64,000 nt of DNA from NCBI GenBank assembly GCA_937926445.1, contig CALBAK010000026.1, positions 186,001-250,000 on the forward strand, written 5' to 3'. A program made the position numbers and the translations under genes. The stretch comes from an uncultured Alphaproteobacteria bacterium (GTDB lineage Bacteria > Pseudomonadota > Alphaproteobacteria > Geminicoccales > Geminicoccaceae). The notes below the pieces were generated by a model. The model did not search any database, was not told the origin of the DNA, and saw only the letters and a program-made list of their open reading frames with translations. Positions 18,484 to 64,000 of the stretch are shown piece after piece. The first letter of the stretch is position 1, and each line of letters starts with the position of its first letter.

Positions 18484-20565
<2,082 letters not shown>

Positions 20566-20629
20566 CGGCCGCGGTCGAGCGCCCAGCGCCGGCCCGCCGC
20601 GGCATCGACCGCTTCGACCCGAGCGCTCC

Positions 20630-20905
20630 TCGTTCGGCGTCGCACAGCCCGCGGTCGCTCCGCACACCAGCATCCGCCCCCCCGGAGGGAGGCATTCGAA
20701 GCTCTCGAGCCGGGTCTCGCCGCCGATGCGGTCGACGATGACCTCGATACCGCCGCGCCCTTCGTGCCCGGCTTGCCGTAGTCCCGCCGGATCACCGCGC
20801 GGAAATCCTCGCGGCTCGTTTCGATCACCTTGCCGGCGCCGAGATCCCTCGCTCGCTCGCGCTTCCGGGGCGTGCCACCGCAGGCGATCACCTCGGCGCT
20901 CGCCC
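20630..20905 (-). pseudogene. Zinc-type alcohol dehydrogenase/quinone oxidoreductase (MDR), C-terminal remnant
   Basis: Fragments of the nucleotide-binding half of an MDR oxidoreductase read on the minus strand. One frame gives EVIACGGTPRKRERARDLGAGKVI, then TSREDFRAVIRRDYGKPGTKG. The match then jumps frame to IEVIVDRIGGETRLESFECL and PPGGRMLVCGATAG. These are the second half of a Rossmann domain in order. The N-terminal half and the rest of the C-terminus are gone. It lies tail to tail with glgX. Confidence 0.65.
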
Positions 20906-20959
20906 GCCACCGCTGCACGGGTGTCGCGGGGTTTCGACCCTCTTCCCCCGCATCCTCGA

Positions 20960-21300
20960 ACAACGCCATCTTCTCGACCGCCTCGCCCTCTCCGGCGTGA
21001 ACGCCGTCCCGGTCGATTCCGCGCCGGTGTCGCATGCGCTCTTCGAGGCGATGCCTCGGCGGTGTCCGTACCGCGACAAGGGCGAGGCCCAGGTAGCCGC
21101 GGTCTCGTTGAGAAAGAGTCGCAGCATGGACGGCGAAGCGCTCCGCCGCCATTGCTTCGAGCACGGACCGGCCTACCCTCTTGCGAAGCGGGTGGCGATC
21201 GTCGACGAGCTGCCGCGCACGGGCGCTGGCGAGATCGACCGGCTGGCGATCGCCGGGCGGTTTCGAGCACTCTGTGCCGAGCCGACGGAGATCCTGGATG
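20960..21300 (+). pseudogene. Acyl-CoA synthetase (AMP-binding), C-terminal domain remnant
   Basis: A plus-strand stretch reads CPYRDKGEAQVAAVSLRKS, then DGEALRRHCFEHGPAYPLAK, then RVAIVDELPRTGAGEIDRLA. This matches the small C-terminal domain of AMP-binding ligases, with the A10-type motif (LPRTATGKID in the family) altered so that the catalytic Lys is Glu (GAGEID). The large N-terminal domain is absent. It ends a few bases before the VOC gene. Confidence 0.65.
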
Positions 21301-21313
21301 GCAGAGAACCGGG

Positions 21314-22219
21314 ATGCGTGAGAGGAAGCAAGGGATCCGCGGCGTGGGCGATCTCGACCACGCGGTGATCCTGGTGGCGGACCTCGAAGAAGCCGAGCGC
21401 CGCTTTGCCGCCCTGGGCTTCCGTACCACGCCCCACGGCTATCACTCGGCGCACATGGGTACCGCCAACAGCACCGTGGTGCTGCCCGACCGCCGCACCT
21501 ATTTCGAGCTCCTTTCGGTCTCCGTGCCCACACCCGCCAACGCCGTCCAGCGCGCCCGTCTCGGGCACCGGCCCGGGCTCTACGGGCTCGCCTTCAAAAC
21601 CGAGGACGCCCGCGCTGTCGCGGCCGAGCTCGCCGCGGCGGGTCTGGGCGAAGGCGGAGCGATCGACTTCGCCCGCACGGTTGAACTCGCCGACGGCCCG
21701 CGCGATGCCCGTTTCACAGTCGCCCGCACTCGCAACGACGCCGCCCCGGGGGCCTGGTGGTTCGTGTGCCAGCACCATACTCCCGATCTCGTCTGGCGGC
21801 CCGACTATCTCGAGCAGCCGAACGGGGCGATGGCACTGGTCGAGGTTCTGGGCTCGGCCGCCGATCTCGACGCTCTCGAAGCGCCCTGGCGGCTCCTGCT
21901 CGGCGAGCGCGTGCGGCGGACCGCGGACCGTCTCGAGGCGCGCACCGCCACCGCCACGATCGCCTTCCACGAGCCCGAGGGCCTGCGCCGCCGGCTCGGC
22001 GGCGCGGTCGACGGGCTCGATCTCGCCGAGCCCGGGCTCGTGGCGCTCGTCTTCGCGGTCGCCGATCCGGCCCGCGCCCGTTCCTGCCTCGAGGCCGCGG
22101 GGATCGCGCTGCTGACCGGGGAGGGAGGTACGGTGCTGGTGCCGGCGGCGGCGGCCTGCGGGGTCGTGATCGCGTTCCGTCCGGCCGCGGCCGGCCGAGG
22201 CGAGGAGGGCGACGGGTAA
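21314..22219 (+). CDS. VOC-superfamily (glyoxalase-like domain) protein, function unknown
   Basis: A 301-residue protein with a VOC/glyoxalase-like N-terminal module: DLDHAVILVADLEEAERRFAALGF (first beta-alpha-beta with metal-type His), YHSAHMGTANSTVVL, TYFELLSV. A second module includes WWFVCQHHTPDLVWRPDYLE and ALVEVLGSAADL. This is the layout of the single-chain glyoxalase-like domain family seen beside degradative genes. ATG 21314 is chosen; the GTG at 21341 is an alternative. It is intact between two groups of remnants. The substrate cannot be inferred. Confidence 0.75.
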   Translation: MRERKQGIRGVGDLDHAVILVADLEEAERRFAALGFRTTPHGYHSAHMGTANSTVVLPDRRTYFELLSVSVPTPANAVQRARLGHRPGLYGLAFKTEDARAVAAELAAAGLGEGGAIDFARTVELADGPRDARFTVARTRNDAAPGAWWFVCQHHTPDLVWRPDYLEQPNGAMALVEVLGSAADLDALEAPWRLLLGERVRRTADRLEARTATATIAFHEPEGLRRRLGGAVDGLDLAEPGLVALVFAVADPARARSCLEAAGIALLTGEGGTVLVPAAAACGVVIAFRPAAAGRGEEGDG

Positions 22220-22254
22220 CGGACCGTTCGTCGGACTCGCGGTGTCGGCCACGA

Positions 22255-22560
22255 CCGTGCTCACACCGGAAAAGACCGCGGCCCGGCAGATCGAGTGGCG
22301 GATGGCCACGATCGACACCGAGACCGGCGTCCGGTTCACGAACATCGCCGAGCCCTTCGCCGAATGGGTGCGCCGGCCGACCAGCGGGCGGACGAAGATC
22401 GACCCGCTGCCGGCCGGCACGTCGGCGACATCTTCGAGTTGCACGAGGCGGTCGAGGACGGGCTCGTCGAGACGACCGATCGGCCGCCGGTCTTTCTCGG
22501 CTCGGCCGATCCCACCGACGCCACGATCGCGAGCTCCCCGACTGTCCCCGGTATCCGCTT
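22255..22560 (+). pseudogene. TRAP transporter binding protein (DctP), N-terminal remnant
   Basis: The plus strand reads RQIEWRMATIDTETGVRFTN, then FAEWVRRPTSGRTKIDPLPAG, then in another frame GDIFELHEAVEDGLVETTDR and PPVFLGSADPTDATIASSP. This is the order of the first lobe of a mannitol/chloroaromatic-type TRAP binding protein, comparable with the intact one at 49573-50670 (IKWRMASSF, GKFQIQLFAAGEIVPG, VLDAVQNNTVEAG). The export signal and about two thirds of the protein are missing, and the sequence runs straight into DctM-like text. Confidence 0.6.
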
Positions 22561-23756
22561 TTCGGGCCGCAGCTGCTCTTCGGCCTGCCCGCCTACGGGA
22601 ACGAAATCGGCCTTCGGCTGCACGCCGGCATCACTGGGACCGCCTCCGACTTCCTGCTCTCGGCCCTGCCGCCCTTCGTTTCCACGGGGTGCGTGCTCGA
22701 GCGCTCGGGCATCGCCGAGCGACCCTTCCAGGCGATGCTCGTCTGGCTCGGCAGGCTGTTCGGCGGCTCGATGCTCGCGACGGTCGCCGTGGCCGCGGTG
22801 ACCGCCGCCTCGAGCGGCATCACGGCGATCCCGGTCACGCTCCGGCGGCGCTGCGGCGAGGCCTCGATCTCCGCCACGATCCGCACTGGCGGCTCGTTCG
22901 GCATCATGATCCCGCCCTCGCTCGTGGTCGTGATCCACGCCTCGCTCGCCAAACAGCCGGTCGGCCTCCTGCCGGCCGCGCTCCTGCTGCCCCGCCCGTT
23001 CGTGGTGGCACTCTTCCTGGCCTCGATCCCGGGTCTCTGACTGCTGCGCCCAGACGCGGGACCGCCGGCCCCCGTCGAGCCCCTGTCGCTCGCCTGCGAG
23101 CTCGCGCTTACCGCCACGGGCCGTGTGCCGGCGGCCGTTCCGATCGCAGCCGAGCTCGGGCCGGTCCTCGCCGGGACCGCGAGCCCGACCGAGGCTGCCT
23201 CGGTGGGGGCCCAAGGTGCGCTACCCCTCGCCGCCTTTCCTTCGCCGTCCTGCGCGCCGCCCTCGAGCGCGCGCTCCCGATCTACGCCACGATCCTCTCG
23301 ATCGTGGTCGGCGGCTCGATGTTCACGGTCGTCTTCGAGGTTCACGGCGGCCACCCGCTCGTGGCCGATCTCGCGGGAGGGGGCACGGGCCTCTCGCCGG
23401 AGGGTGTCGTGCTCCAGCTGCTCGCGATCGTCTTCCTCGCGGGCTTCCTCCTCGACCGGGTCTCGACCGTCTCGATCTGCCTGCCGATCTTGCCGCCGAT
23501 CCTGGCCGAGGCGAAGATCGACCCGTCCTGGTTCGCGGCCCTCGTGGTCGTCGTCGTCCAGATCAGCGGTTTCGCCCCACCCGTGGTGCCCTCGATCTCC
23601 TACCGCCGTTCAATCGCTCAGTCCCAGATCGGCTACGGCCACGGGGTGCAGGACCTGGTCCCCTCCGTGGCGGCCCAGCTCCTCACCCTCGCCTTCTTCT
23701 ACGCCTTGCCGGCCCTCGCCATCTGGCTGCCGAAGGCGCCGATCCGGGGCTTCTGA
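22560..23756 (+). pseudogene. TRAP transporter large permease (DctM), decayed
   Basis: Remnant of the 12-TM ion-coupled permease subunit. First frame: FLLSALPPFVSTGCVLERSG, IAERPFQAMLVWLGRLFGGS, GGSFGIMIPPSLVVVIHASL, ending at TGA near 23040. Middle frame: SPTEAASVGAQGALPLAAF. Last frame: LSFAVLRAALERALPIYATI, FLAGFLLDRVSTVSICLPIL, and APPVVPSISYRRSIAQSQIG, to the stop at 23756. Compared with DctM it has at least two frameshifts and internal deletions. With the dctP fragment before it, a whole TRAP system has been lost here. Confidence 0.8.
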
Positions 23757-25062: not shown

Positions 25063-25826
25063 GCCTCGGCCTCGCCCTCGGCCAGATGCGCGAGCACGAC
25101 GCCACCGAAGGCCTGGTCGGTCGGCACGAGGTCGATCCGGGCGAGATCGACATGCGGCGGCAGTCGCAAGGCGTCGACCACCACCCGCGCCACTTCGCTC
25201 GGCCGGATGGCGCGAAAACCACGATAGAGCCGCTCCCGGACGGTGGCCCGGTCGCCGCCCATCGCATCGAGATAGATGTCGGTCTCGACCCGGCCCGGAT
25301 TTAGTTCGGTGACCCGAATGCCCGTTCCGACGAGATCGAGCCGCAGGTTCTGGGCGAGCATCGACAGCGCCGCCTTCGATGCGGTGTAGACGGCCATCGC
25401 CGGATAGGGGTGGTGGGCCGAGATCGACGAGGTGACGAACAGATGACCGCTGCGGCGTGCCACCATGCCCGGCAGCAGCACGCGGATGGTGTGCATGGCG
25501 GCTTTGACATTGAGGTCGAGCATCGCATCGAGCTCGTGCCGCCCCATTTCGTGCAGGGGTTTCACCGCGCTGATCCCGCCTGCGTTGACCACGAGCACGT
25601 CGACGGCGAGCGGGCCGAGGGCGGCCTCGAGGGCAGCCGTGTCGGTGACATCCAGCGGCAGCGGCCGACAACCGGTCTCGGCCGCGAGGCCGGCAAGCGC
25701 TTCGGCCGAGCGCGCGACCGCATAGACCTCGAGCCCCTCGGCGCGGAGTGCCGCGACGATCGCGGCACCGATCCCGCGCGAGGCGCCTGTCACGAGCGCG
25801 GTCCGATAGGCGGGGCTGGTGGTCAC
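25035..25826 (-). CDS. Short-chain dehydrogenase/reductase (SDR)
   Basis: Classical SDR of 263 aa. Cofactor motif TALVTGASRGIGAAIVAAL, NNAG-equivalent VVNAGGIS, the catalytic Ser in FVTSSISAHHPYPAM, Tyr and Lys in VYTASKAALSMLAQNL, and the NPGRVETD segment. The arginine after the glycine loop (VARSAE) suggests NADP(H). GTG 25826 overlaps the stop of the upstream chimeric dehydrogenase gene (GTGA), so it may depend on that transcript. The substrate is unknown. Confidence 0.9.
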   Translation of the reverse strand: MTTSPAYRTALVTGASRGIGAAIVAALRAEGLEVYAVARSAEALAGLAAETGCRPLPLDVTDTAALEAALGPLAVDVLVVNAGGISAVKPLHEMGRHELDAMLDLNVKAAMHTIRVLLPGMVARRSGHLFVTSSISAHHPYPAMAVYTASKAALSMLAQNLRLDLVGTGIRVTELNPGRVETDIYLDAMGGDRATVRERLYRGFRAIRPSEVARVVVDALRLPPHVDLARIDLVPTDQAFGGVVLAHLAEGEAEAQGRESSQR

Positions 25827-27183
25827 GGGCGAGTCTCCTCGAAGAGCCGGCGGAGCCGCTGGCCGAGCCGCTCGAGCGCCACCACGGCGGCATCGGGCGC
25901 CCGGATCGTGTGTAGCGTACCATGGGCGAGGCCTGGCCAGACCAGGAGCTCGTGCCGCACCATCACCTCGCCGAGCTTCTGCGCGAGCGTGCGGCTCTCG
26001 TCGAGCAGCGGGTCGATCACGGCGGCGGCCTCGGGCAGAGCCTCGCCACCTCCGGCCCCGGCCGGAGACCACTCGGCCGCGGCGAGGGCCGCCGGTACGT
26101 CCTTCTCCCTCACCCGCCCGTCGGCTCCGTTCCGCGCAACGCGAGCGAGGTCGACTCCGTGCTCGCGGGCGAGCCTTCGGGCGATCGGAGAGGCCGGCAC
26201 GAAATCCGTTTCCTGCGGGGCCGCCGCGCGGCGGTCGCTGGCCACAGCGGTGGGGGTCGGGGCCGGCTCCCTCGGGCGGGCCGGCGCGGCCGGCAGCGGC
26301 GCTGGTAGCGAGGCCGCTTCTGCCGCCGCGCCGCCCCGTGCGCCCCCGCCGCCCGCGCGCGGCACCCCCGGTCCCTCGGGCCGCAGCCGGCACAGCACGC
26401 TGCCGACCGTGACGCCCCGTCCGGACTCGACCGATGGTGCTTCGACCACGCCGGCCGTCTGGCTGATCACCTCCCTCGCCGCCTCGGCGGTCTCGACCAC
26501 GGCGAGCACCGCTCCGGCCTCGACTGCCTCCTCGGCGAGCCGCTCGGCCGCGGCGAGGGCTGCGAGCACCATCCGGCTCGAGGCCACGATCGTGAGGTCG
26601 CGGCCCGCCCGGCGGATCACGGCCGGGCCGATCCGCTCCACATGCTCGCTCGGCGGCACCGGCCCACGGGTTTCGTAGAGCGCCTCGTGCTCGACGAAGA
26701 CCACCGGGTTCGGATCGCCGATCGCGGCCTCGAGCAGGCCCTCGGCGTCGGCCGGGCTGGCCGGCACGACGACCTCGAGCCCCGGGATGTGGGCGACCCG
26801 GGCCTCGAGGCTCTCGCTGTTCTGCGCCCCCCGAGTGGGTAGCACGAGGGCAGCCGCACCGCTCCGTTCCAGATCCGAGGCAGCACCTCGGCCTGGTCGA
26901 CGAGCCGGTCGAGGCAGAGCGGCAGGAAGTCCACGTCCATGATCTCGGCGACGGGCCCGTGGCCCGTCACGCCGGCCCCGATCCGGAGCGCTCCGATCGC
27001 CGGCTCGGCGATCGGCGTATCGCGGACCCGCGAGGGTCCGCACTCGGCCGAGAGGTCCTTCGTCACTTCGAAGACGCCGCCATGAACGCCGACGTCCTCG
27101 CCGAACACCACGACCGAGGGGTCGCGCCGCGTCTGTTCGAGGATGGCTTCGCGCAAGTCTTCGGCGTAGCGCAGCTCGCGCAC
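25823..27183 (-). pseudogene. Chimeric remnant: dehydrogenase E1-beta joined to E2 lipoyl and E3-binding domains and a hydrolase tail
   Basis: GTG 27183 starts an E1-beta-like protein (RELRYAEDLREAILEQTRRD, VVFGEDVGVHGGVFEVTKDL, LPRIWNGAVRLP). Frame is lost near 26848 and resumes as NSESLEARVAHIPGLEVVVP, NPVVFVEHEALYETRG, GRDLTIVASSRMVLAALAAA. After RLAEE the text changes without a stop to an E2 lipoyl domain (VEAGAVLAVVETAEAAREVI, TAGVVEAP) in which the lipoyl Lys of ETDKA is Glu. An E3-binding domain follows (ASPIARRLAREHGVDLARVA), then an alpha/beta-hydrolase C-terminus (DPLLDESRTLAQKLGE, LLVWPGLAHG). The E1-beta C-terminal domain and the E2 catalytic core are missing. Confidence 0.8.
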
Positions 27184-27198
27184 GGGCAGGCTCCCGCA

Positions 27199-28125
27199 CT
27201 AGGCCAGGCTCGTCGACGTGTTCGGCGCCCGCGAGCGCCTCGGCCGGCGCCAACGGTGCGGCGAGCGCGGCTCGGAGTTCCCGCTCGACCTCGCCCTCGA
27301 GCGCGAGGAGCGCGCTCTCGCCGAGCTCGGGCAAAAGTTCGCCGCGCAGCCGCAGGATCGGGTCTCGGGACCGCCAGGCGGCGATCTCGGCCGGATCCCG
27401 ATAGCCACCGAGATCGCTCGTCGAGAAGCCCTCGAGCCGTTGGGTGCGGGCCTCGATCAGGCTGGGTCCCTCGCCCCGGGGGGCGGGTCGCGGCCTCGGC
27501 CACCGCCCCGAACACCGCCCGCACGTCGTTGCCGTCGACCCTCACCCCGGGCATGCCGTAGCCCGCGGAACCCATCGCGAGCTCGGGCACCGCGGCCTGC
27601 GCCGCGTTCGGCACGGTCGGGGGAAAGCCGTCGTGTTCGATGAGGAAGATCACCGGCAGCCGCCACGGGCTCGCGAGGTTCACGGCCTCGTGGGCGGCGC
27701 CGATTTGGGCGGCACCGTCGCCCAGGAAGGCGCAGGCCACGCGCGGCTCGCCGCGCACCCGGAAGGCGAGCGCCCGGCCGACCGCCACCGGCAGCATCCC
27801 GCGCATGATCCCGCAGCCCCCGAGGAGCCCCACCGCCGGATCGGCCACCGGCATGTGCCCGCCGCGGTCGCCGCAGCTCCCGGTGGCCCGGCCCGTGATA
27901 TCGGCCACGAGCGGGCCGAGCGCCGTGCCCCTCGCCGAGACAATGGGCGTCACCACGATGGGTCGCGGTCACCGGGTCCTCGGGCTCGAGCGCGGCCGTG
28001 GCGCCGATACCCCCCTCCTGACCGTCGCAGCGATGGATCGGCCCGCGGTTGCGGCCCTCCTCGTGCAGCCGGCCGAGCTCCTTCTCGAGCCGACGCGCGG
28101 GCACCATGTGGCGGTAGTCTCACGC
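27199..28125 (-). pseudogene. Pyruvate/2-oxoacid dehydrogenase E1-alpha subunit, frameshifted
   Basis: Thiamine-diphosphate subunit of a pyruvate, acetoin or branched-chain dehydrogenase complex. First frame: YRHMVPARRLEKELGRLHEE, DGQEGGIGATAALEPEDPVT, THRGDAHCLGEG. A shift near 27925 leads to GPLVADITGRATGSCGDRGG, HMPVADPAVGLLGGCGIMRG, the ThDP motif region AFLGDGAAQIGAAHEAVNLA, and VDGNDVRAVFGAVAEA. A second shift near 27485 gives EGPSLIEARTQRLEGFSTSD and the C-terminal helices. No stop in this last frame separates it from the E1-beta region. It is directly upstream of the E1-beta chimera. Confidence 0.8.
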
Positions 28126-56544: not shown

Positions 56545-57876
56545 ATGCTCGAGCTCGACGCGGCGGACACCCTCCGCCCTCCAAGTACCGACGAAAGCGA
56601 GCGGTCCGGACCGCACGGCCCCTCCGCCGCGAGCCGCGCCGCCAGGCCCCTGCCGTCCGGCGTCGCCGGCACGGCCCGGCCCGGGCGGCGCGAAACGTTT
56701 CCGATGGGCCCGCAGGCCCGTGCGTTCAAGCGCCGGTTCTTCCCCGACACCGCGCGCGCCGAGTGGGACGATTGGCGGTGGCAGGCCCGCAACCGCCTGC
56801 GCACGCTCGCTCAGCTCGAGCGCGTTTTCCGCCTGAGCGAGGACGAACGCGAGGCGGTCCGTCGCCACCAGGGCGCGCTGCCGGTCGGAATCACGCCCTA
56901 CTACGCGGCGCTGATGGGCCTCGAGGATCCGAACGAACCGCTGCGCCGCACCCACGTCCCGGTCGGCGCCGAATATGTCCGCTCCCCCGGCGAGGCCGAC
57001 GATCCGCTCGGCGAGGACCACGATGCCGCGGTCCCGGGCCTCGTCCACCGCTACCCCGACCGTGTCCTCTTCCTCGCCACCGCCTTCTGCTCGACCTATT
57101 GCCGCTACTGCACCCGCTCGCGTCTCGTGGGCGAGGTCGGCGGCGAGTACCATTTCGCCTACGCCCAGTGGGAGAAGGCGCTCGCCTACATCGAGGCCAC
57201 GCCCACGATCCGCGACGTGCTGATCTCGGGCGGCGATCCCTTGACCCTCGGCGACGACAAGCTCGATTGGCTCCTGGGCCGTCTCGAGGCCATCCGCCAC
57301 GTCGAGTTCGTGCGGATCGGCTCCAAGGTCCCGGTCGTCCTGCCGCAGCGGATCACCCGCGGCCTGATCGCCGTCCTGCGCCGCCACCGCCCGGTCTGGA
57401 TGAGCCTGCATTTCACCCACCCGGCCGAGCTCACCCGCGAGACCGAAGAGGCCTGCGCCCGGCTCGCCGATGCCGGCGTGCCGCTCGGCTCGCAGACCGT
57501 CTTGTTGAAGGGCGTCAACGACGACGCCGAGGTCCTGAAGGCCCTCTTCCATGGTCTCCTGCGCAACCGGGTGCGGCCCTACTACCTCTTCCAGTGCGAT
57601 CCCATCACCGGCTCCGCCCATTTCCGCACCCCGGTCGAGACCGGCGTCGAGATCATCCGCCGGCTGCGCGGCTTCACGAGCGGCTATGCGGTCCCGACCT
57701 ACGTCATCGATGCCCCGGGCGGTGGCGGCAAGGTCCCGCTCCTGCCCGACTACCTGGTCGGCCGCGACGGCGACGATCTGCTCCTGCGCAACTTCGAGGG
57801 CGAGCTCTACCGCTACCGCGATCCGGGCGGCCGGATCGGCCGCGCCCTCGGCCGGGGGAGTGCCGAGCCGTGCTGA
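56545..57876 (+). CDS. kamA: Lysine 2,3-aminomutase (KamA-family radical SAM)
   Basis: PLP- and 4Fe4S-dependent enzyme that turns L-lysine into beta-lysine. The radical SAM cysteines are in FCSTYCRYCTRS. The glycine motif is LISGGDPLTLGDDKLDWLL. The PLP lysine is in IDAPGGGGKVPLLP. Both acidic residues that bind the lysine side-chain amino group in the Clostridium enzyme have counterparts (Asp in YYLFQCDPITG and Asp in YVIDAPGGGG), which argues for lysine over glutamate. 443 aa, with a low-complexity N-terminus of about 50 residues. The stop overlaps the first ligase start by seven bases. It is not next to efp or a clear epmA, so the EF-P modification role (EpmB) is less likely. Confidence 0.9.
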   Translation: MLELDAADTLRPPSTDESERSGPHGPSAASRAARPLPSGVAGTARPGRRETFPMGPQARAFKRRFFPDTARAEWDDWRWQARNRLRTLAQLERVFRLSEDEREAVRRHQGALPVGITPYYAALMGLEDPNEPLRRTHVPVGAEYVRSPGEADDPLGEDHDAAVPGLVHRYPDRVLFLATAFCSTYCRYCTRSRLVGEVGGEYHFAYAQWEKALAYIEATPTIRDVLISGGDPLTLGDDKLDWLLGRLEAIRHVEFVRIGSKVPVVLPQRITRGLIAVLRRHRPVWMSLHFTHPAELTRETEEACARLADAGVPLGSQTVLLKGVNDDAEVLKALFHGLLRNRVRPYYLFQCDPITGSAHFRTPVETGVEIIRRLRGFTSGYAVPTYVIDAPGGGGKVPLLPDYLVGRDGDDLLLRNFEGELYRYRDPGGRIGRALGRGSAEPC

Positions 57877-58880
57877 TCGGCCTCGCTTACGATCTGCGCG
57901 ATGATTATCGCGGCCTCGGGCTCGCCGAAGAGCAGCTCGCCGAGTTCGACAGCCCAGAGACCATCGCCGAGCTCGAGGCCGCCCTCCTCCGCCTCGGCCA
58001 CGCGGTGGACCGGATCGGCCATGTCCGTCGCCTGGCCGAGCGGCTGGTCGCCGGCCATCGCTGGGACCTCGTCTTCAACATCTGCGAGGGCCTCGCTGGC
58101 CGCTCGCGCGAGGCCCAGGTGCCGGCGCTCCTCGAGGCCTTCGGCCAGCCCTACACCTTCGCCGACCCGCTCGTCATGGCCGCCACCCTCGACAAGGCGG
58201 TGGCCAAGCGGTTGGTCCGCGACCACGGGCTCGCGACCGCCTCTTTCGCGCTGGTCGAGCGGGCGGCCGACATTGCCGCCGTCGACCTTCCCTTCCCGCT
58301 CTTCGCCAAGCCCGTGGCCGAGGGTACCGGGAAGGGCGTCTCGCCCGCCTCGCTCGTCCGCTCGCCAAAGGAGCTCGAGCGCGTCTGCCGGCGGCTGCTC
58401 GCCCGCTACGCCCAGCCGGTGCTGGTCGAGACCTACCTGCCCGGCCGCGAATTCACCGTCGGCATCGTCGGCAGCGGAGCCGCGGCGCGGATCGTCGGCA
58501 CTCTCGAGGTCGCGCTGCTGCCGGGTGCGGAGCCTGGCGTCTATTCCTACACCAACAAGGAGCGCTGCGAGGAGCTCGTCCGCTACACGCTCGTCGACGA
58601 TCCCGAGGCGCGGGCCGCCGCTACACTCGCGCTCGCCTGCTACCGCGCCCTCGACTGTCGCGACGCCGGCCGGGTCGACCTCCGGAGCGACGCCGCCGGC
58701 AGGCCGCATTTCCTCGAGGTCAACCCTCTGGCCGGCCTGCATCCGACCCATTCGGATCTGCCGATCCTCGCGAGCCTCGCCGGCCTCGGTTACGACGGGC
58801 TGATCGGCGCCATCGTGGCCTCGGCGGCCGAGCGGGCGGGCCTCGCCCGGGAGCGGGCGGCCCGCCGCCGGACGGGCTGA
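57870..58880 (+). CDS. ATP-grasp ligase, D-alanine-D-alanine ligase-like (ligase A)
   Basis: 336-residue ATP-grasp enzyme that should join a carboxylate to an amine through an acyl phosphate. N-terminal domain LIGLAYDLRDDYRGLGLAEEQ, VFNICEGLAGRSREAQVPALLE (Ddl-like), the ATP lid region LPFPLFAKPVAEGTGKGVSP, VETYLPGREFTVGIVG, and the metal-binding C-terminus AGRVDLRSDAAGRPHFLEVNPLAGLHPTHSDLP. These are Ddl motifs, but the lead sequence and context differ from cell-wall Ddl. GTG 57870 overlaps the kamA end. The substrate is unknown; beta-lysine is the obvious candidate. Confidence 0.85.
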   Translation: MLIGLAYDLRDDYRGLGLAEEQLAEFDSPETIAELEAALLRLGHAVDRIGHVRRLAERLVAGHRWDLVFNICEGLAGRSREAQVPALLEAFGQPYTFADPLVMAATLDKAVAKRLVRDHGLATASFALVERAADIAAVDLPFPLFAKPVAEGTGKGVSPASLVRSPKELERVCRRLLARYAQPVLVETYLPGREFTVGIVGSGAAARIVGTLEVALLPGAEPGVYSYTNKERCEELVRYTLVDDPEARAAATLALACYRALDCRDAGRVDLRSDAAGRPHFLEVNPLAGLHPTHSDLPILASLAGLGYDGLIGAIVASAAERAGLARERAARRRTG

Positions 58881-58885
58881 GCCCC

Positions 58886-59884
58886 GTGGCGCCCCGTGTC
58901 CTCCTCCTGCACGGCGTGCTCGATCCGGCCGACCGGCCGGACGAGGCCGACACCCTCGTCCAGGTCCGCGAGGTCGAGGCGATCCTGCGCACGCTCGGCT
59001 GGCGCACCGAGGTCCTGGGTCTCGGCCTCGACCTGCGGCCGCTCGCCGCGCGCGCCGCCGACCCGCCGGATCTCGTCTTCTACCTGGTCGAGGCGCTCGA
59101 GGGGCGGGCCGGGCTCCAGCACCTGCCGGCGGCCCTTCTCGACGTCCTGGGCATTCCCTACACCGGTGCGCCCGCCACGGCCCTCCAGCTCACGACCGAC
59201 AAGCTCGCCGCCAAGCGCCTCCTGCGCCGCCTCGAACTGCCGACCCCCGACTGGGTCGAGCCCGGCGAACCGGCCGATCCCGAACGGCTCTGGATCGTCA
59301 AAGCGGTCGACGAGGACGCCTCCCTGGGTCTGGATGCCGGGGCGGTGGTGGCCGGCACCGAGGTGCCCCGGCGGATCGCCGCGATGCGCGCCCGCTTCGG
59401 CGGCCGCTGGTTCGCCGAGGCCTTTGTCGAGGGCCGCGAGTTCAACATCCCGCTCCTCGAGGGAGCGAACGGGCCCGAGATCCTGCCGATCGGCGAGATC
59501 GACTTCGCCGACTATCCGAAGGATCGGCCGGCGATCGTCGACTACGACGCCAAATGGTCCCCGGGCTCGCTCACCTGGGAGACGACACCCCGTCGTTTCG
59601 ACGCCCGGCCGGGCGACGGGCCGCTGCGCGCCGAACTCGCCCGCCTCGCCCGCACGGTCTGGGACCTGTTCGGCCTCGCGGGCTACGCCCGGGTCGATCT
59701 GCGGGTCGACGCGTGCGGCCGGCCCTGGATCCTCGAGGTCAACGCCAATCCCTGCCTTTCGGCCGATGCCGGCTTCGTGGCCGCGCTCGAGGAGGCGGGG
59801 CTCGACCAGCGTGCCGCGGTCGAGCGGATCCTGGGCGCGGCCCGCGGCCGTGGCGCGGCTCCGCCCTTCGCCGTCGCGGCTTAG
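58886..59884 (+). CDS. ATP-grasp ligase, D-alanine-D-alanine ligase-like (ligase B)
   Basis: 332-residue second ATP-grasp enzyme, clearly different from ligase A. Start RVLLLHGVLDPADRPDEADT, VFYLVEALEGRAGLQHLPAAL, GIPYTGAPATALQLTTDKLAAKRLL, LWIVKAVDEDASLGLD, FVEGREFNIPLLEG, and the metal-binding end YARVDLRVDACGRPWILEVNANPCLSADAGF. GTG 58886 is five bases after ligase A. The pair suggests two successive amide bonds, or one bond made by a heteromeric enzyme; that is inference. Confidence 0.85.
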   Translation: MAPRVLLLHGVLDPADRPDEADTLVQVREVEAILRTLGWRTEVLGLGLDLRPLAARAADPPDLVFYLVEALEGRAGLQHLPAALLDVLGIPYTGAPATALQLTTDKLAAKRLLRRLELPTPDWVEPGEPADPERLWIVKAVDEDASLGLDAGAVVAGTEVPRRIAAMRARFGGRWFAEAFVEGREFNIPLLEGANGPEILPIGEIDFADYPKDRPAIVDYDAKWSPGSLTWETTPRRFDARPGDGPLRAELARLARTVWDLFGLAGYARVDLRVDACGRPWILEVNANPCLSADAGFVAALEEAGLDQRAAVERILGAARGRGAAPPFAVAA

Positions 59885-59893
59885 GAGCGCACC

Positions 59894-60100
59894 GTGCTCG
59901 CCGGGATCCGCGCTCGCAGCGCGCCGGGCTTCGGGCTCCGCGACGGCCCGCTCCCGGCGAACGCGGCGGCCGTCCAGCGCCACGTCCCCGGCACGAGGCC
60001 GGCCCCGCGCGGCCGCGAGAGCCGGTGCTCCGTCGATCCGGCCGGGGCCCGGGGGCGCAGCCGCGCCGAGCGTGCCCGTCCGTGCGAGCGAGCGCTGTGA
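59894..60100 (+). pseudogene. Truncated tandem copy of the GNAT gene
   Basis: A 68-codon open frame with a good ribosome-binding site (GGAG, six bases before GTG 59894) and a stop that overlaps the GNAT start (GTGA). Its text FGLRDGPLPANAAAVQRHV parallels the GNAT N-terminus FALRDTPVSSDPAAVERLV position by position, also at the DNA level, after which similarity is lost. I read it as a decayed duplicate of the next gene that still couples translation across the gap. A small functional peptide is the alternative. Confidence 0.55.
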
Positions 60101-60666
60101 GCACCCCACGCAGCGGGCTCGGCTGCGGCGCCGCCCCGACCGCGTTCGGCTTCGCCCTGCGCGACACCCCGGTTTCCTCCGACCCGGCGGCGGTCGAGCG
60201 CCTGGTCGTCGCCACCGGCTTCTTTCGCCCGAGCGAAGTGGCGATCGCCCGCGAGCTCGTCGAGGACAGTCTCGCCCGCGGTCCCGAAGCCTCGGGCTAT
60301 CATTTCGTGCTGGCCGACGATGCGCGCGGGCTCGCGGGTTATGTCTGCTTCGGCCCGATCGCCGGAACCGAGAGCAGCTTCGACCTCTACTGGATCGCCG
60401 TCCGTCCCGACCGAGGGGGCCGGGGCCTCGGCACGGCGCTCCTCGCCGCGGCCGAGGCGCGGATCGCGGCGGCCGGCGGTCGCCGGGTCTATGTCGAGAC
60501 CTCGACTACCGAACGCTACGCGCCGACTCGCGCCTTCTATGCCGCCCGTGGCTACCGCCTCGAGGCGACGCTCCCCGACTTCTACGCCCCGGGCGACGGC
60601 AAGGCCTTCTTCGTCAAGGTCCTAGGCGGGTGCGAGGTGCCGCCGTGCGGATCGGTCCGGTCCTGA
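60097..60666 (+). CDS. GNAT-family N-acetyltransferase
   Basis: 189-residue acetyl-CoA-dependent acetyltransferase. Core: AVERLVVATGFFRPSEVAIA, LAGYVCFGPIAGTESSFDLYWIAV (beta-4), acetyl-CoA loop RPDRGGRGLGTALLAAAEARI, and YVETSTTERYAPTRAFYAARGYRLEA. In methanogens and some bacilli a GNAT (AblB) beside lysine 2,3-aminomutase acetylates beta-lysine. This protein is placed similarly, but whether it is an AblB counterpart cannot be decided here. Its start and end overlap its neighbours. Confidence 0.85.
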   Translation: MSTPRSGLGCGAAPTAFGFALRDTPVSSDPAAVERLVVATGFFRPSEVAIARELVEDSLARGPEASGYHFVLADDARGLAGYVCFGPIAGTESSFDLYWIAVRPDRGGRGLGTALLAAAEARIAAAGGRRVYVETSTTERYAPTRAFYAARGYRLEATLPDFYAPGDGKAFFVKVLGGCEVPPCGSVRS

Positions 60667-61022
60667 TCGCTCCGGCCGGCGCCAAGGGCCTCGGCGTGTT
60701 CGCGGCCGAGCCCTTGCCGGCCGGAGCGGCGTTCGACCCGCAGCCCGTGTTCGAGCTCGATCCCGCGGATGTCGATCCGATCGAGCGGACCCGTTTCCGC
60801 AACCACTACTTCGCCCATCCCGAGCGGGACGGGGTCGGGGTGATCGTGCTCGGCTGGCTCACCCTCGTGAACCACGGCCTGCCGCCCACCCTCGAGCTCG
60901 ACTGGCGGCGAGACCCGCTGACCGGCTGGGCGGTCGTGCCGCGCACCCGGCGCCCGCTGGGCCCGGGCGAGGAGCTCACGATCGACTACAATTGCCCGCT
61001 CTGGTTCGAGGCCCTGCCGTGA
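60645..61022 (+). CDS. SET-domain protein, copy 1
   Basis: 125-residue minimal SET domain, a fold of lysine N-methyltransferases using S-adenosylmethionine. KGLGVFAAEPLPAGAAFDPQP is the usual first strand-turn. LGWLTLVNHGLPPTLELDW carries the NH of the catalytic NHS motif, and PGEELTIDYNCPLWFE carries the catalytic Tyr region. No pre-SET or histone-reader module exists, so a small molecule or a single protein is the likelier target. GTG 60645 or GTG 60630 could be the start; both overlap the GNAT end. Confidence 0.8.
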   Translation: MRIGPVLIAPAGAKGLGVFAAEPLPAGAAFDPQPVFELDPADVDPIERTRFRNHYFAHPERDGVGVIVLGWLTLVNHGLPPTLELDWRRDPLTGWAVVPRTRRPLGPGEELTIDYNCPLWFEALP

Positions 61023-61438
61023 GCCCGCTCCCGCGCGGCTGGCGGCGGGCCGCGATCGTGGGCGGCGAGCGTCTGCTGGAGTTGCGCGCCGTCCCCGGCG
61101 AGGGCCTCGGCGTCTTCGCCCGCCGGCCGATCGCGGCGGGTCGGGTCCTGTGCCGCTGCCCGACCCTGGCTCTCGACCGCGCGGACTGCGACCGGCTGAA
61201 CGAGACGCGCCTCGCCAAGCACTTCTTCACGGGCGACGGGCCCGAGTTCGAGGCTCGGCTCGCCCTCGGTCTCTTGACCCTCGTCAACCCGGCCGGTCCG
61301 CCCAATGCCGACTGGCGCTACGTCGACGGCGGCGCCTCGGGCTGCCTCGTCGAACTCGTGGCCCCCCGGCCGATCGAAGCCGGCGAGGAGGTCACGATCG
61401 ACTACAACACGTCCCTCTGGTTCGAGCCCGTTCCCTAG
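61019..61438 (+). CDS. SET-domain protein, copy 2
   Basis: 139-residue paralogue of copy 1. EGLGVFARRPIAAGRVLCRCP, RLNETRLAKHFFTGDGPEFE, LGLLTLVNPAGPPNADWRY and AGEEVTIDYNTSLWFEPVP line up with it. The catalytic NH motif reads NP here (LVNPAGPPN), while the ELTIDYN part is conserved. GTG 61019 overlaps the stop of copy 1 (GTGA). It may have lost methyltransferase activity or act as a partner subunit. Confidence 0.8.
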   Translation: MSPLPRGWRRAAIVGGERLLELRAVPGEGLGVFARRPIAAGRVLCRCPTLALDRADCDRLNETRLAKHFFTGDGPEFEARLALGLLTLVNPAGPPNADWRYVDGGASGCLVELVAPRPIEAGEEVTIDYNTSLWFEPVP

Positions 61439-61448
61439 CGATCGGCCC

Positions 61449-61900
61449 GGCGAGGGACGCGCATCGTCGGCAGCGAACGGCTCTCGAGGTCGACGCCCCG
61501 GCTCCGAGAGGGCGGCTCCGGCCGGCACGCGAGCCGCCGAGCTCGGCAGGCTCCACCGAAGCTTTCCCGGGGCAGTCGAGCGCGAGCATCGCACCCGCCT
61601 CGGGCGCGCCGCGCCGAGCCCCTGTCGCGCGGCGAGGGGCCGACGAACGGGGCTCGCTCGTCCGCGCGACGCTCGCGGGCCGTACCGTCCCGCTCGATGC
61701 CGCCCGATGCCCATTCGACGATCGGCCCCGGGCCCGCCGATCGGCCCGCGGCATCCGGGCCGGTCGCGACCGGCCCGGTGTCGAGCTCGGTCTGTCGGGT
61801 CGGCGGATCCCGGGCGGCGCCTGCCCGATGCGCGATCGCGATCGGCGAGGAGGTCAACATCGCCGGCGGGACCCGGCTCGAGCCCGAGCCGCCACCCCGG
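61449..61900 (+). pseudogene. SET-domain gene remnant, copy 3
   Basis: Starts with RGTRIVGSERLSRST, matching RRAAIVGGERLLELR of copy 2, and ends with AIGEEVNIAGGTRLEPEPP, matching the AGEEVTIDYNTSLWFEPVP end. The spacing is that of one gene, but the middle is shuffled between frames and no continuous frame joins the two. It directly follows copy 2. Confidence 0.65.
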
Positions 61901-61904
61901 CAAC

Positions 61905-62335
61905 CGGCGCCGCCGGCGGACCGCGTTCGAGGCGGGGCCGGCCTCGGGTCGCTGCCCGCTCGTGGATTCCACGCTCGCCGCGCACCGGCCGGCGGGGGGC
62001 GGCCCGGCTCGGGCAGTCGACCGCGGGGATCTCGTCCGCCGCCTCGCCATAGCGGCTGTCCCGCTCCGCCGCCCCTTCGGCCGCGCACGCGATCGATCGG
62101 ACGGCGCCCGCCTGGATGCGACGTCCCTCACGGAGCCCGTCTTCACGGGTGACGAACTCCCATCGTGGCTCGCTGAGCCCTCTTCCTTTCCACCTTCGCC
62201 GATCCCGCCGTCCCGCCCGGCGCCGGGTCGACGGTCGCCCTTCGGGCTGCTCGATCGGGCCCCGGGGTCCGGCCGATCGAAGCCGGCGAGGAGGTCGGGA
62301 TCGACGGCCACACGCCCCTTCGATTCCCTCCGCAG
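61905..62335 (+). pseudogene. SET-domain gene remnant, copy 4
   Basis: Contains RLDATSLTEPVFTGDE, parallel to RLNETRLAKHFFTGDG of copy 2, and further on, in another frame, RPIEAGEEVGIDGHTPLRFP, parallel to RPIEAGEEVTIDYNTSLWFE. The NH region is not recognisable. It ends against the convergent DUF1850 gene. Confidence 0.65.
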
Positions 62336-62337
62336 GC

Positions 62338-62712
62338 TCAGGGATCGGGGCAGGGCCAGAGGCGGATCGGCCCCTCGGCACCGGGTAGGAGCGCCCCGAG
62401 CGGACGACAGCCCCGCTCGTCGCACAGCCGCCAATCTTCGAGCCCCGGGCCGCGGGCGAGGACGAGTTCGGGAAGCGGCGGCAGTGCAGGCCGGAACCGC
62501 CAGGCGCCGGCCTCTAGGCGCGCATCGGGACCCGGCTCCATCCCAGCCCCGCTCCCTGCCACCCGACTCTCGAGCAGGACGAGCCCCGTGGGTTCGACGC
62601 GCCAATCCTCTCTCCACGGGACCTTCTCGACCGTGTGTGTCCACAGGAGCGTGAAAGCTTCGAGCGCCAGCCGCGCGGCGGCGGCGCCGGCGGAAAGGCA
62701 GAGCCCGCTCAA
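62338..62712 (-). CDS. DUF1850 protein of a TRAP transporter operon
   Basis: 124-residue protein of the DUF1850 family, usually encoded with TAXI-type TRAP permeases and of unknown role. FTLLWTHTVEKVPWREDWRV, LVLLESRVAGSGAGMEPGPDA, PLPELVLARGP and CRPLGALLPG are the conserved parts. The N-terminus is hydrophobic, suggesting export. TTG 62712 overlaps the permease stop (TTGA), which fixes the start despite the rare codon. Confidence 0.85.
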   Translation of the reverse strand: MSGLCLSAGAAAARLALEAFTLLWTHTVEKVPWREDWRVEPTGLVLLESRVAGSGAGMEPGPDARLEAGAWRFRPALPPLPELVLARGPGLEDWRLCDERGCRPLGALLPGAEGPIRLWPCPDP

Positions 62713-64000
62713 GATCCGACCACCGTCGAGGGCCGTGCCCGGTGGCGCCAGAGATGGAAGCCGAGCGTGGCGACGGCGAGCGCGAAGCCGAGCTCGTCGG
62801 TCCAGGGCAGGGCGACCACGAGGACGGCCGCGGCGACCAGGCAACCGGCCCGCTCGGCGAGCGTCATCGGCCCTTTGAGAAAGCCCGTGAGCGCCGAAGC
62901 CCAGAGAAGGATTCCGAGAAGCGCTTTGCCGACCACGTAGACGACCGCGGGCCAGAAGCCGATCAGCGCGGCCATCGGGTCGCTCGGCTGGAGGAGAAGC
63001 GAGGGCGCGTAGACCGCCATGAACGGCACCACGTAGCCGGCGATCGCGATGCGCGTCGCGGTCAAACCGATCTTCAGATGGCTCTCGCCGGCGATCGGCG
63101 AGGCGGCCAGCGCGGCGAGCGCCACCGGCGGGGTCAGGTCGGCCATGATCCCGAAATAGAAGACGAACATGTGGCTCACGATGAGCGGTACGCCGAGCTC
63201 GAGGAGCGCCGGCCCGGCGATCGAGGCCGTGATGATGTAGTTGGGAATCGTCGGGATGCCGGTGCCGAGCACGAGGCAGGTGAGCATGGTGAGCAGGAGG
63301 CTCGCGAACAGCGAGCTCCGGCCGAGATCGACGATCGCTCCTGCGAGATTGGTCGCGGCGCCGGTGAGCGTGAGCGTGCCGATGATCGTCCCGACCAGGG
63401 CGCAGGCGATGCCGACCGGAAGCGCGTGGCGGGCTCCGTCGGCGAGCGCGTCGCGGACGAGCGCGAGGGTCTCGCGTCCCCCCTTCACGACGCAGGCGGC
63501 GACGACCAGGACCAGGACGACGGCCACGATCGCGTCGACCCCGAAGCGGGCGAAGGCGCCGGCCCCGAGGCCGAGCGCGATCCAGAAGGCGAGCCGCAGC
63601 GCTCCCGCCGGCAACGCGTTCGCGACCGGCCGGCCGAGGACGACGAAGGCGGTGAGCCCGAGCCCGATCGTACCGGCGAAGAGCGGCGTGTAGCCGGCGA
63701 AGAGGAGCCAGACGAGAGCGGCGAGCGGCAACAACAACGGCCAGTCGCGCCGGAGGGCGGCGAGCGCGCTCGGACATTGGGAGAGCGGTAGACCGGCGAG
63801 GCCCCGCCGGCCCGCCTCGAGATGGACGGTGAGGAAGGCGGTGGTGAAATAGAGGAGGGCCGGGATCGCCGCGGCGATGCAGATCTCGACGTAGGGCACG
63901 CCGATGGTCTCGGCCATGATGAAGGCCACCGCCCCCATCACCGGCGGCATGATCTGCCCGCCCATCGAGGAGGTGGCCTCGACCGCTCCGGCGAAACGGG
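62709..64000 (-). CDS. TRAP transporter fused permease (TAXI type), 5' end outside the window
   Basis: C-terminal 430 or so residues of a fused 4TM/12TM permease. AGAVEATSSMGGQIMPPVMGAVAFIMAE lies at the window edge and is a family signature. Further marks are ATNLAGAIVDLG, LVLGTGIPTIPNYIITASIAGPAL, SHMFVFYFGIMADLTPPVALAA, IAGESHLKIGLTATRIAIAGYVVPFMAVY. About ten TM segments follow. The frame is open past base 64000. The TAXI binding protein, normally next to it, would lie beyond the window. Confidence 0.92.
   Translation of the reverse strand, partial: RFAGAVEATSSMGGQIMPPVMGAVAFIMAETIGVPYVEICIAAAIPALLYFTTAFLTVHLEAGRRGLAGLPLSQCPSALAALRRDWPLLLPLAALVWLLFAGYTPLFAGTIGLGLTAFVVLGRPVANALPAGALRLAFWIALGLGAGAFARFGVDAIVAVVLVLVVAACVVKGGRETLALVRDALADGARHALPVGIACALVGTIIGTLTLTGAATNLAGAIVDLGRSSLFASLLLTMLTCLVLGTGIPTIPNYIITASIAGPALLELGVPLIVSHMFVFYFGIMADLTPPVALAALAASPIAGESHLKIGLTATRIAIAGYVVPFMAVYAPSLLLQPSDPMAALIGFWPAVVYVVGKALLGILLWASALTGFLKGPMTLAERAGCLVAAAVLVVALPWTDELGFALAVATLGFHLWRHRARPSTVVGS

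Follow-up and report, generated by a model that had tools for sequence, protein, structure and literature searches.

Three features in the 64,000-bp window (the whole stretch of DNA that was analysed) are, with a probability of roughly 0.8, relics of small local tandem duplications that took place in the lineage of this species and then decayed neutrally. One of them is a decayed copy of the 5' end of a GNAT acetyltransferase gene and the other two, R1 and R2, are decayed copies of SET2, a gene for a small SET-domain protein. The homology of the relics to the neighboring genes, their absence from sister genomes, and the missing codon constraint can be read directly from the sequences, whereas inference is needed for the recombination route (from a repeat shared by SET1 and SET2), for how many events took place, and for how old R1 is. 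Such small relics are easily missed in a stretch with 74% GC.

Gene cluster and its setting

The relics lie among six genes in the order kamA, lig1, lig2, GNAT, SET1, and SET2, all on the forward strand of the window, which comes from a 3.71-Mb assembly. The kamA gene (positions 56545 to 57876) encodes a lysine 2,3-aminomutase-like radical SAM enzyme with the Pfam domains LAM_C and Radical_SAM. It scores 436 bits against the solved lysine 2,3-aminomutase 2A5H and has Asp at both positions aligned to D293 and D330, the aspartates that hold the side-chain amine of lysine; against the AblA equivalog TIGR03820, it scores 474.8 bits, below the cut-off of 525.4. Next come lig1 (57870 to 58880; Pfam ID PF07478, E = 1.9e-23), encoding a D-Ala-D-Ala-ligase-like ATP-grasp enzyme, and lig2 (58886 to 59884; PF07478, 1.8e-14), encoding a second ATP-grasp ligase. 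An earlier, sequence-only reading of this DNA had amplification confined to the GNAT and SET genes, sparing the ligases and kamA. This holds for recent events, but lig1 and lig2 are themselves distant ATP-grasp paralogs with about 30% identity.

The intact GNAT gene (60097 to 60666; PF13508, 2.5e-11, with the domain at residues 68 to 154) is 76 to 81% identical to its counterparts in sister genomes, and its 3' end is overlapped by the 5' part of SET1 (60645 to 61022), which encodes an intact small SET-domain protein of 125 amino acids (PF00856, 5.7e-6). SET2 (61019 to 61438) is an open SET-domain gene of 139 codons (PF00856, 5.8e-10), followed by convergent genes that include the one for DctM of a TRAP transporter (62709 to 63965, reverse strand).

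A partial GNAT copy after lig2

The gap between lig2 and GNAT is 212 bp long, and its first ~100 bp match the 5' end of GNAT at a single offset, 221 bp. The relic (59885 to 59985, forward strand) begins at the base after the lig2 stop codon and is a decayed copy of the first ~37 GNAT codons, with 64 of 100 positions identical in this fixed register; five successive 20-bp blocks (59885 to 59984) contribute 13, 10, 15, 10, and 16 matches. Past 59984, the signal at this offset ends. Thus, the proposal that the 59894 to 60100 frame repeats the GNAT start is borne out for the first ~100 bp, while the remainder, up to 60096, is unrecognizable. The recognizable part ends near codon 37 and the acetyltransferase domain starts near residue 65, so that no copy of the domain is present in the relic.

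Coding sequences with 74% GC give sizeable background scores, up to 129 for SET2. Chance similarity was evaluated with background windows and shuffles and was rejected; as an account of all three features, it is very improbable. The best ungapped match of 59894 to 60011 in the whole 64 kb is at 60115, with 69 of 118 positions identical, the runner-up having 63. The local alignment score of the GNAT relic is 83, and none of the 6,260 background windows scores above 78; chance is nearly refuted for this relic, which is very likely a true leftover of duplication. Furthermore, the GNAT relic and R1 lie exactly where the sister genomes have no DNA.

In two of the sister genomes, G001 and G003, the lig2 stop codon overlaps the GNAT start, and thus the GNAT relic appears to occupy the former site of the gene start. 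A duplication of ~220 bp of the GNAT 5' end would have placed an inactive piece directly behind lig2 and shifted the working gene to 213 bp downstream, so that an overlap like that in these two genomes was lost.

Decayed copies of SET2, one certain and one probable

The ~900 bp located 3' of SET2 hold both of its decayed copies, R1 (61439 to 61893) and R2 (61919 to 62331), both on the forward strand and both deprived of an open frame by many indels. Scores of SET2 alignments with 3,066 other stretches of the window, on both strands, reach a maximum of 129. R2, with a score of 234 and 74% identity over 382 positions, is far above this background. It is also recovered by nhmmer with a profile built from the SET2 genes of three species (E = 1.1e-20; 62085 to 62325), and in a self-BLAST of the window, no other local repeat is as strong as the SET2-R2 pair (E = 8e-21). 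Judged from these alignments, R2 is certain to be a SET2 copy, and chance is already refuted for it. R1 exceeds the background maximum only marginally, with a score of 136 and 67% identity over 366 aligned positions. Its 3' end matches that of SET2 at offset 462, with 50 of 80 positions identical in an unbiased scan, barely more than the 48 of 80 reached by chance in a sister locus. In an unbiased ungapped scan of a 3-kb region, the offsets ranked 416 (SET1-SET2), 221 (GNAT), and 462 (SET2-R1), the last one near the chance level. R1 is therefore likely a SET2 copy, with a probability of about one in ten that its similarity is due to chance. A similarity of R1 to R2 beyond their shared tie to SET2 is not supported (score of 127 against a background maximum of 131). 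The two SET-like remnants previously suspected after SET2 are thus firmly established in the case of R2 and probable in the case of R1, the weakest of the three relics, although all of them beat every background window tested.

Relationship and state of SET1 and SET2

SET1 and SET2 are ~40% identical and form separate clades, each with a support of 100/99. An origin of SET2 from SET1 inside the clade of the window species, G004, and G005 was rejected (AU test, P = 0.022); a tree in which all SET1 and SET2 sequences of the genus group together remained acceptable (P = 0.51). SET1 and SET2 are old paralogs and not a recent duplicate pair. Both evolve under purifying selection, with dN/dS of about 0.17 to 0.34.

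SET1 carries the NH motif (VNHG in the alignment) and the C-terminal Tyr. Small SET-domain lysine methyltransferases (PF00856; solved structures 5h6z and the viral 1n3j) belong to the same family by profile. In contrast to these, SET2 of the window reads NP instead of NH (VNPA) and GEG instead of GKG, both at near-invariant columns, and is a putative enzyme encoded in a kamA/ATP-grasp cluster. The NH motif is kept by the other eleven sequences of the same alignment, and the near-invariant His has been lost from the window SET2. We considered whether this gene is already a pseudogene; despite the lost NH motif, this is not supported, since its unique changes fall mostly in third codon positions (11, 10, and 21 over the three positions). 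The description of SET1 and SET2 as two intact genes is accordingly right in that both frames are open, but SET2 has lost the His of the NH motif.

The two genes share a nearly identical coding 3' end, GEE(L/V)TIDYNxxLWFE. At the DNA level, 48 bp of the SET1 3' end (60966 to 61013, forward strand) are 83% identical to positions 61382 to 61429 of SET2, at a spacing of 416 bp; this repeat is detected by the self-BLAST of the window (E = 1e-6) and by the offset scan (55 of 80 at offset 416). We propose it as a seed of recombination.

Sister genomes

Five genomes of the same genus, G001 to G005, were compared with the window genome by tblastn and by reading of the sequences. None of the five contains any of the three relics, the orthologous locus of the GNAT relic included; all three are found in the window species alone. 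G005 has a chromosome colinear with the window that lacks 1,072 bp between 59880 and 62212, a length close to the summed relic intervals. These data uphold the idea of tandem duplication followed by decay, as limited to this species among the genomes compared. A 116-bp SET1-SET2 spacer in G004 was considered as a similar relic and dismissed, as it has no significant self-match.

The comparison of copy numbers, previously proposed as a check, revealed variation among intact genes as well. Pfam SET counts in whole genomes are 2 in the window genome, 2 each in G004 and G005, 1 each in G001 and G002, and 0 in G003, and all these genes lie in the cluster. G004 and G005 have SET1 and SET2, and G001 and G002 have SET1 only. 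Thus, SET1 is conserved in four sisters and SET2 is found in only two. In G003, SET1 is frameshifted (locus L020, 7618 to 7988) and has lost motif residues, leaving no intact SET gene. Coverage of this contig is 4.6x and a sequencing error is possible, but the amino acid losses argue for real decay. The decay seems to be recent, because the differences between the G003 and G001 SET1 sequences still lead at third positions (19, 26, and 47 over the codon positions). Another genome, G108, encodes a single 298-aa frame with two SET domains (L125, 1360 onward), the second one having lost the NH motif; this is an independent SET duplication with loss.

Mode and timing of decay

Differences between R2 and SET2 are spread evenly over codon positions (30/126, 36/128, and 33/128), as are those between R1 and SET2 (49/124, 38/120, and 33/122), and both relics therefore decayed without constraint. 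The functional pair, SET2 of the window and of G005, shows the usual third-position excess (20, 17, and 39). Confining the R2 comparison to sites that are invariant among SET2 genes gives 22/96, 32/101, and 16/70, again without a third-position excess. The relics show an excess of transversions, which is not odd because fourfold sites of the genus show the same: between the window genome and G005, these contain 253 transversions and 63 transitions, mostly C/G exchanges.

These counts bear on the suggestion of the sequence-only reading that the extra copies reflect diversifying tailoring steps or dosage changes under selection, i.e., that additional copies of the GNAT and SET genes persisted for some time before their loss. 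Such a selected amplification would fit the location in this cluster of every SET gene recognized in these genomes, the SET copy number of 0 to 2 in the genus, and the retention of one old SET duplication or gain, as SET1 and SET2 are ~40% identical and both constrained. However, the lack of a third-position excess in R1 and R2 leaves no detectable phase of selection at the protein level, the GNAT relic is an N-terminal piece alone, outside the acetyltransferase domain, and R2 may have been copied from an already altered SET2. The codon in question encodes the lost His; it is CAC in the sisters, CCG in the window SET2, and CCC at the aligned position of R2, a single site which suggests that the His-to-Pro change preceded the copying. 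In addition, unrelated genes of the window are also decaying. Selection for dosage or tailoring is thus an unlikely cause of the relics; diversification may have played a part in the separation of SET1 from SET2, which is much older.

Relative to G005, the window is clearly longer in four other stretches, two of which hold broken genes. A TRAP DctM gene is broken over two frames (22242 to 23756 and 21757 to 23040, both on the forward strand) in a stretch that is missing from the colinear G005. On the reverse strand, the region from 25823 to 27956, mostly missing in G005, contains fragments of a pyruvate-dehydrogenase-type E1 alpha, E1 beta, and E2 (with lipoyl and E3-binding domains) in different frames. 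A further ~480 bp beyond the G005 sequence is found at 20543 to 21342, where the frames look by eye like a broken quinone-reductase-type gene; those searched against Pfam gave no match. With other genes of the window decaying, the relics are not peculiar to the cluster and there is less need for a cluster-specific cause.

As for the date of the duplications, the relics could instead be the third and fourth SET genes of the genus ancestor, cleanly lost in the sisters. For the polarity counts, informative sites were masked during alignment; these counts replaced those from an alignment based on the window SET2 (18:7 and 16:6), which was biased toward it. At sites where the window SET2 differs from the state shared by G004 and G005, R2 has the window base in 16 cases and the shared sister base in 8. 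Its alignment scores follow the same order: 234 with the window SET2, 183 with that of G005, and 156 with that of G004. R2 therefore most likely arose after the split from G004 and G005, on the branch of the window species, and an ancestral gene is disfavored in its case. The same masked count for R1 (8 and 6) favors neither date, and the divergence of R1 is high, 33%, both of which an older origin would accommodate. Given also that none of the five sisters retains a trace of them, we consider the ancestral-gene explanation improbable. In the favored reading of local duplication within this lineage, R2 has diverged by 26%, a value comparable to the fourfold-site divergence between the window genome and G005 (31.7%) and higher than a neutral clock predicts if R2 arose late on the branch. 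Either the relics date from an early stage of this branch, or they have evolved more rapidly than fourfold sites.

A possible route of duplication

If the 3' ends of SET1 and SET2 recombined unequally, the product would be one extra unit the size of SET2 (416 bp), placed at the 3' border of the operon beside the convergent transporter genes. R1 and R2 could be two copies made in this way and then lost to substitutions and indels. The unit spacings, 462 and 441, exceed 416 and require insertions. A simple stepwise series would not suffice, because R2 lies farther from SET2 than R1 does and yet resembles it more; the pair requires block duplication, conversion, or copies of unequal age. The arrangement resembles birth-and-death evolution by unequal recombination in its adjacent head-to-tail copies, unit spacing near that of an existing repeat, presence in a single species, and decay by substitutions and indels. 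In principle, it does not differ from such duplication and loss, and is unusual only in that four SET units in differing states are still readable side by side. The relics are a legible case of how tandem copies arise and decay at the edge of an operon.

The cluster in other phyla and its possible product

A search of named genomes with lig1 found 495 relatives, and the loci of 80 of these were retrieved. The hosts include Geminicoccaceae, other alphaproteobacteria, Deltaproteobacteria, Planctomycetes, Spirochaetes, Calditrichota, and others, and the kamA-lig1-lig2-GNAT order recurs across many phyla. Such clusters often carry a histone-deacetylase-like domain, as at L030 (8939 to 11251), L042 (8653 to 10977), L037 (9422 to 11230), and L060 (2023 to 3867). 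Four additional open reading frames were tested, and all have a histone-deacetylase domain, either separate or fused to GNAT; frames of this type often show a weak GNAT-like match at the N terminus. The genus of the window has no cluster-linked deacetylase and encodes two deacetylase-family genes elsewhere in the genome. Among the clusters compared, the only ones with a linked SET gene are those of this genus, of G017, and of Pseudaestuariivita; SET has been added to the cluster in a few alphaproteobacteria.

With the N-epsilon-acetyl-beta-lysine pathway (ablA/ablB), the cluster shares a GNAT and a KamA encoded in one operon, the KamA having both aspartates aligned to those that bind lysine. 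It differs from this pathway by two ATP-grasp ligases and the SET genes, by the histone-deacetylase-like domain added in its relatives, and by a KamA that scores below the AblA cut-off. Since the aligned aspartates of KamA are kept, a product derived from beta-lysine is plausible. Our literature search on this gene set returned nothing relevant. It is tempting, if rather speculative, to consider the cluster an uncharacterized cross-phylum beta-lysine pathway, in which GNAT, deacetylase, and SET proteins resembling histone modifiers would act on a small product built by the ligases. Some alphaproteobacteria would have added SET, this genus would have dropped the linked deacetylase, and the SET turnover would represent a methylation step that was gained, duplicated, and lost.

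The cluster is of greater interest than the relics, being widespread, undescribed in the literature searched, and optional in its deacetylase and SET parts. If its product is identified, the differences in SET copy number among the sister genomes would tell whether methylation of this product is dispensable.
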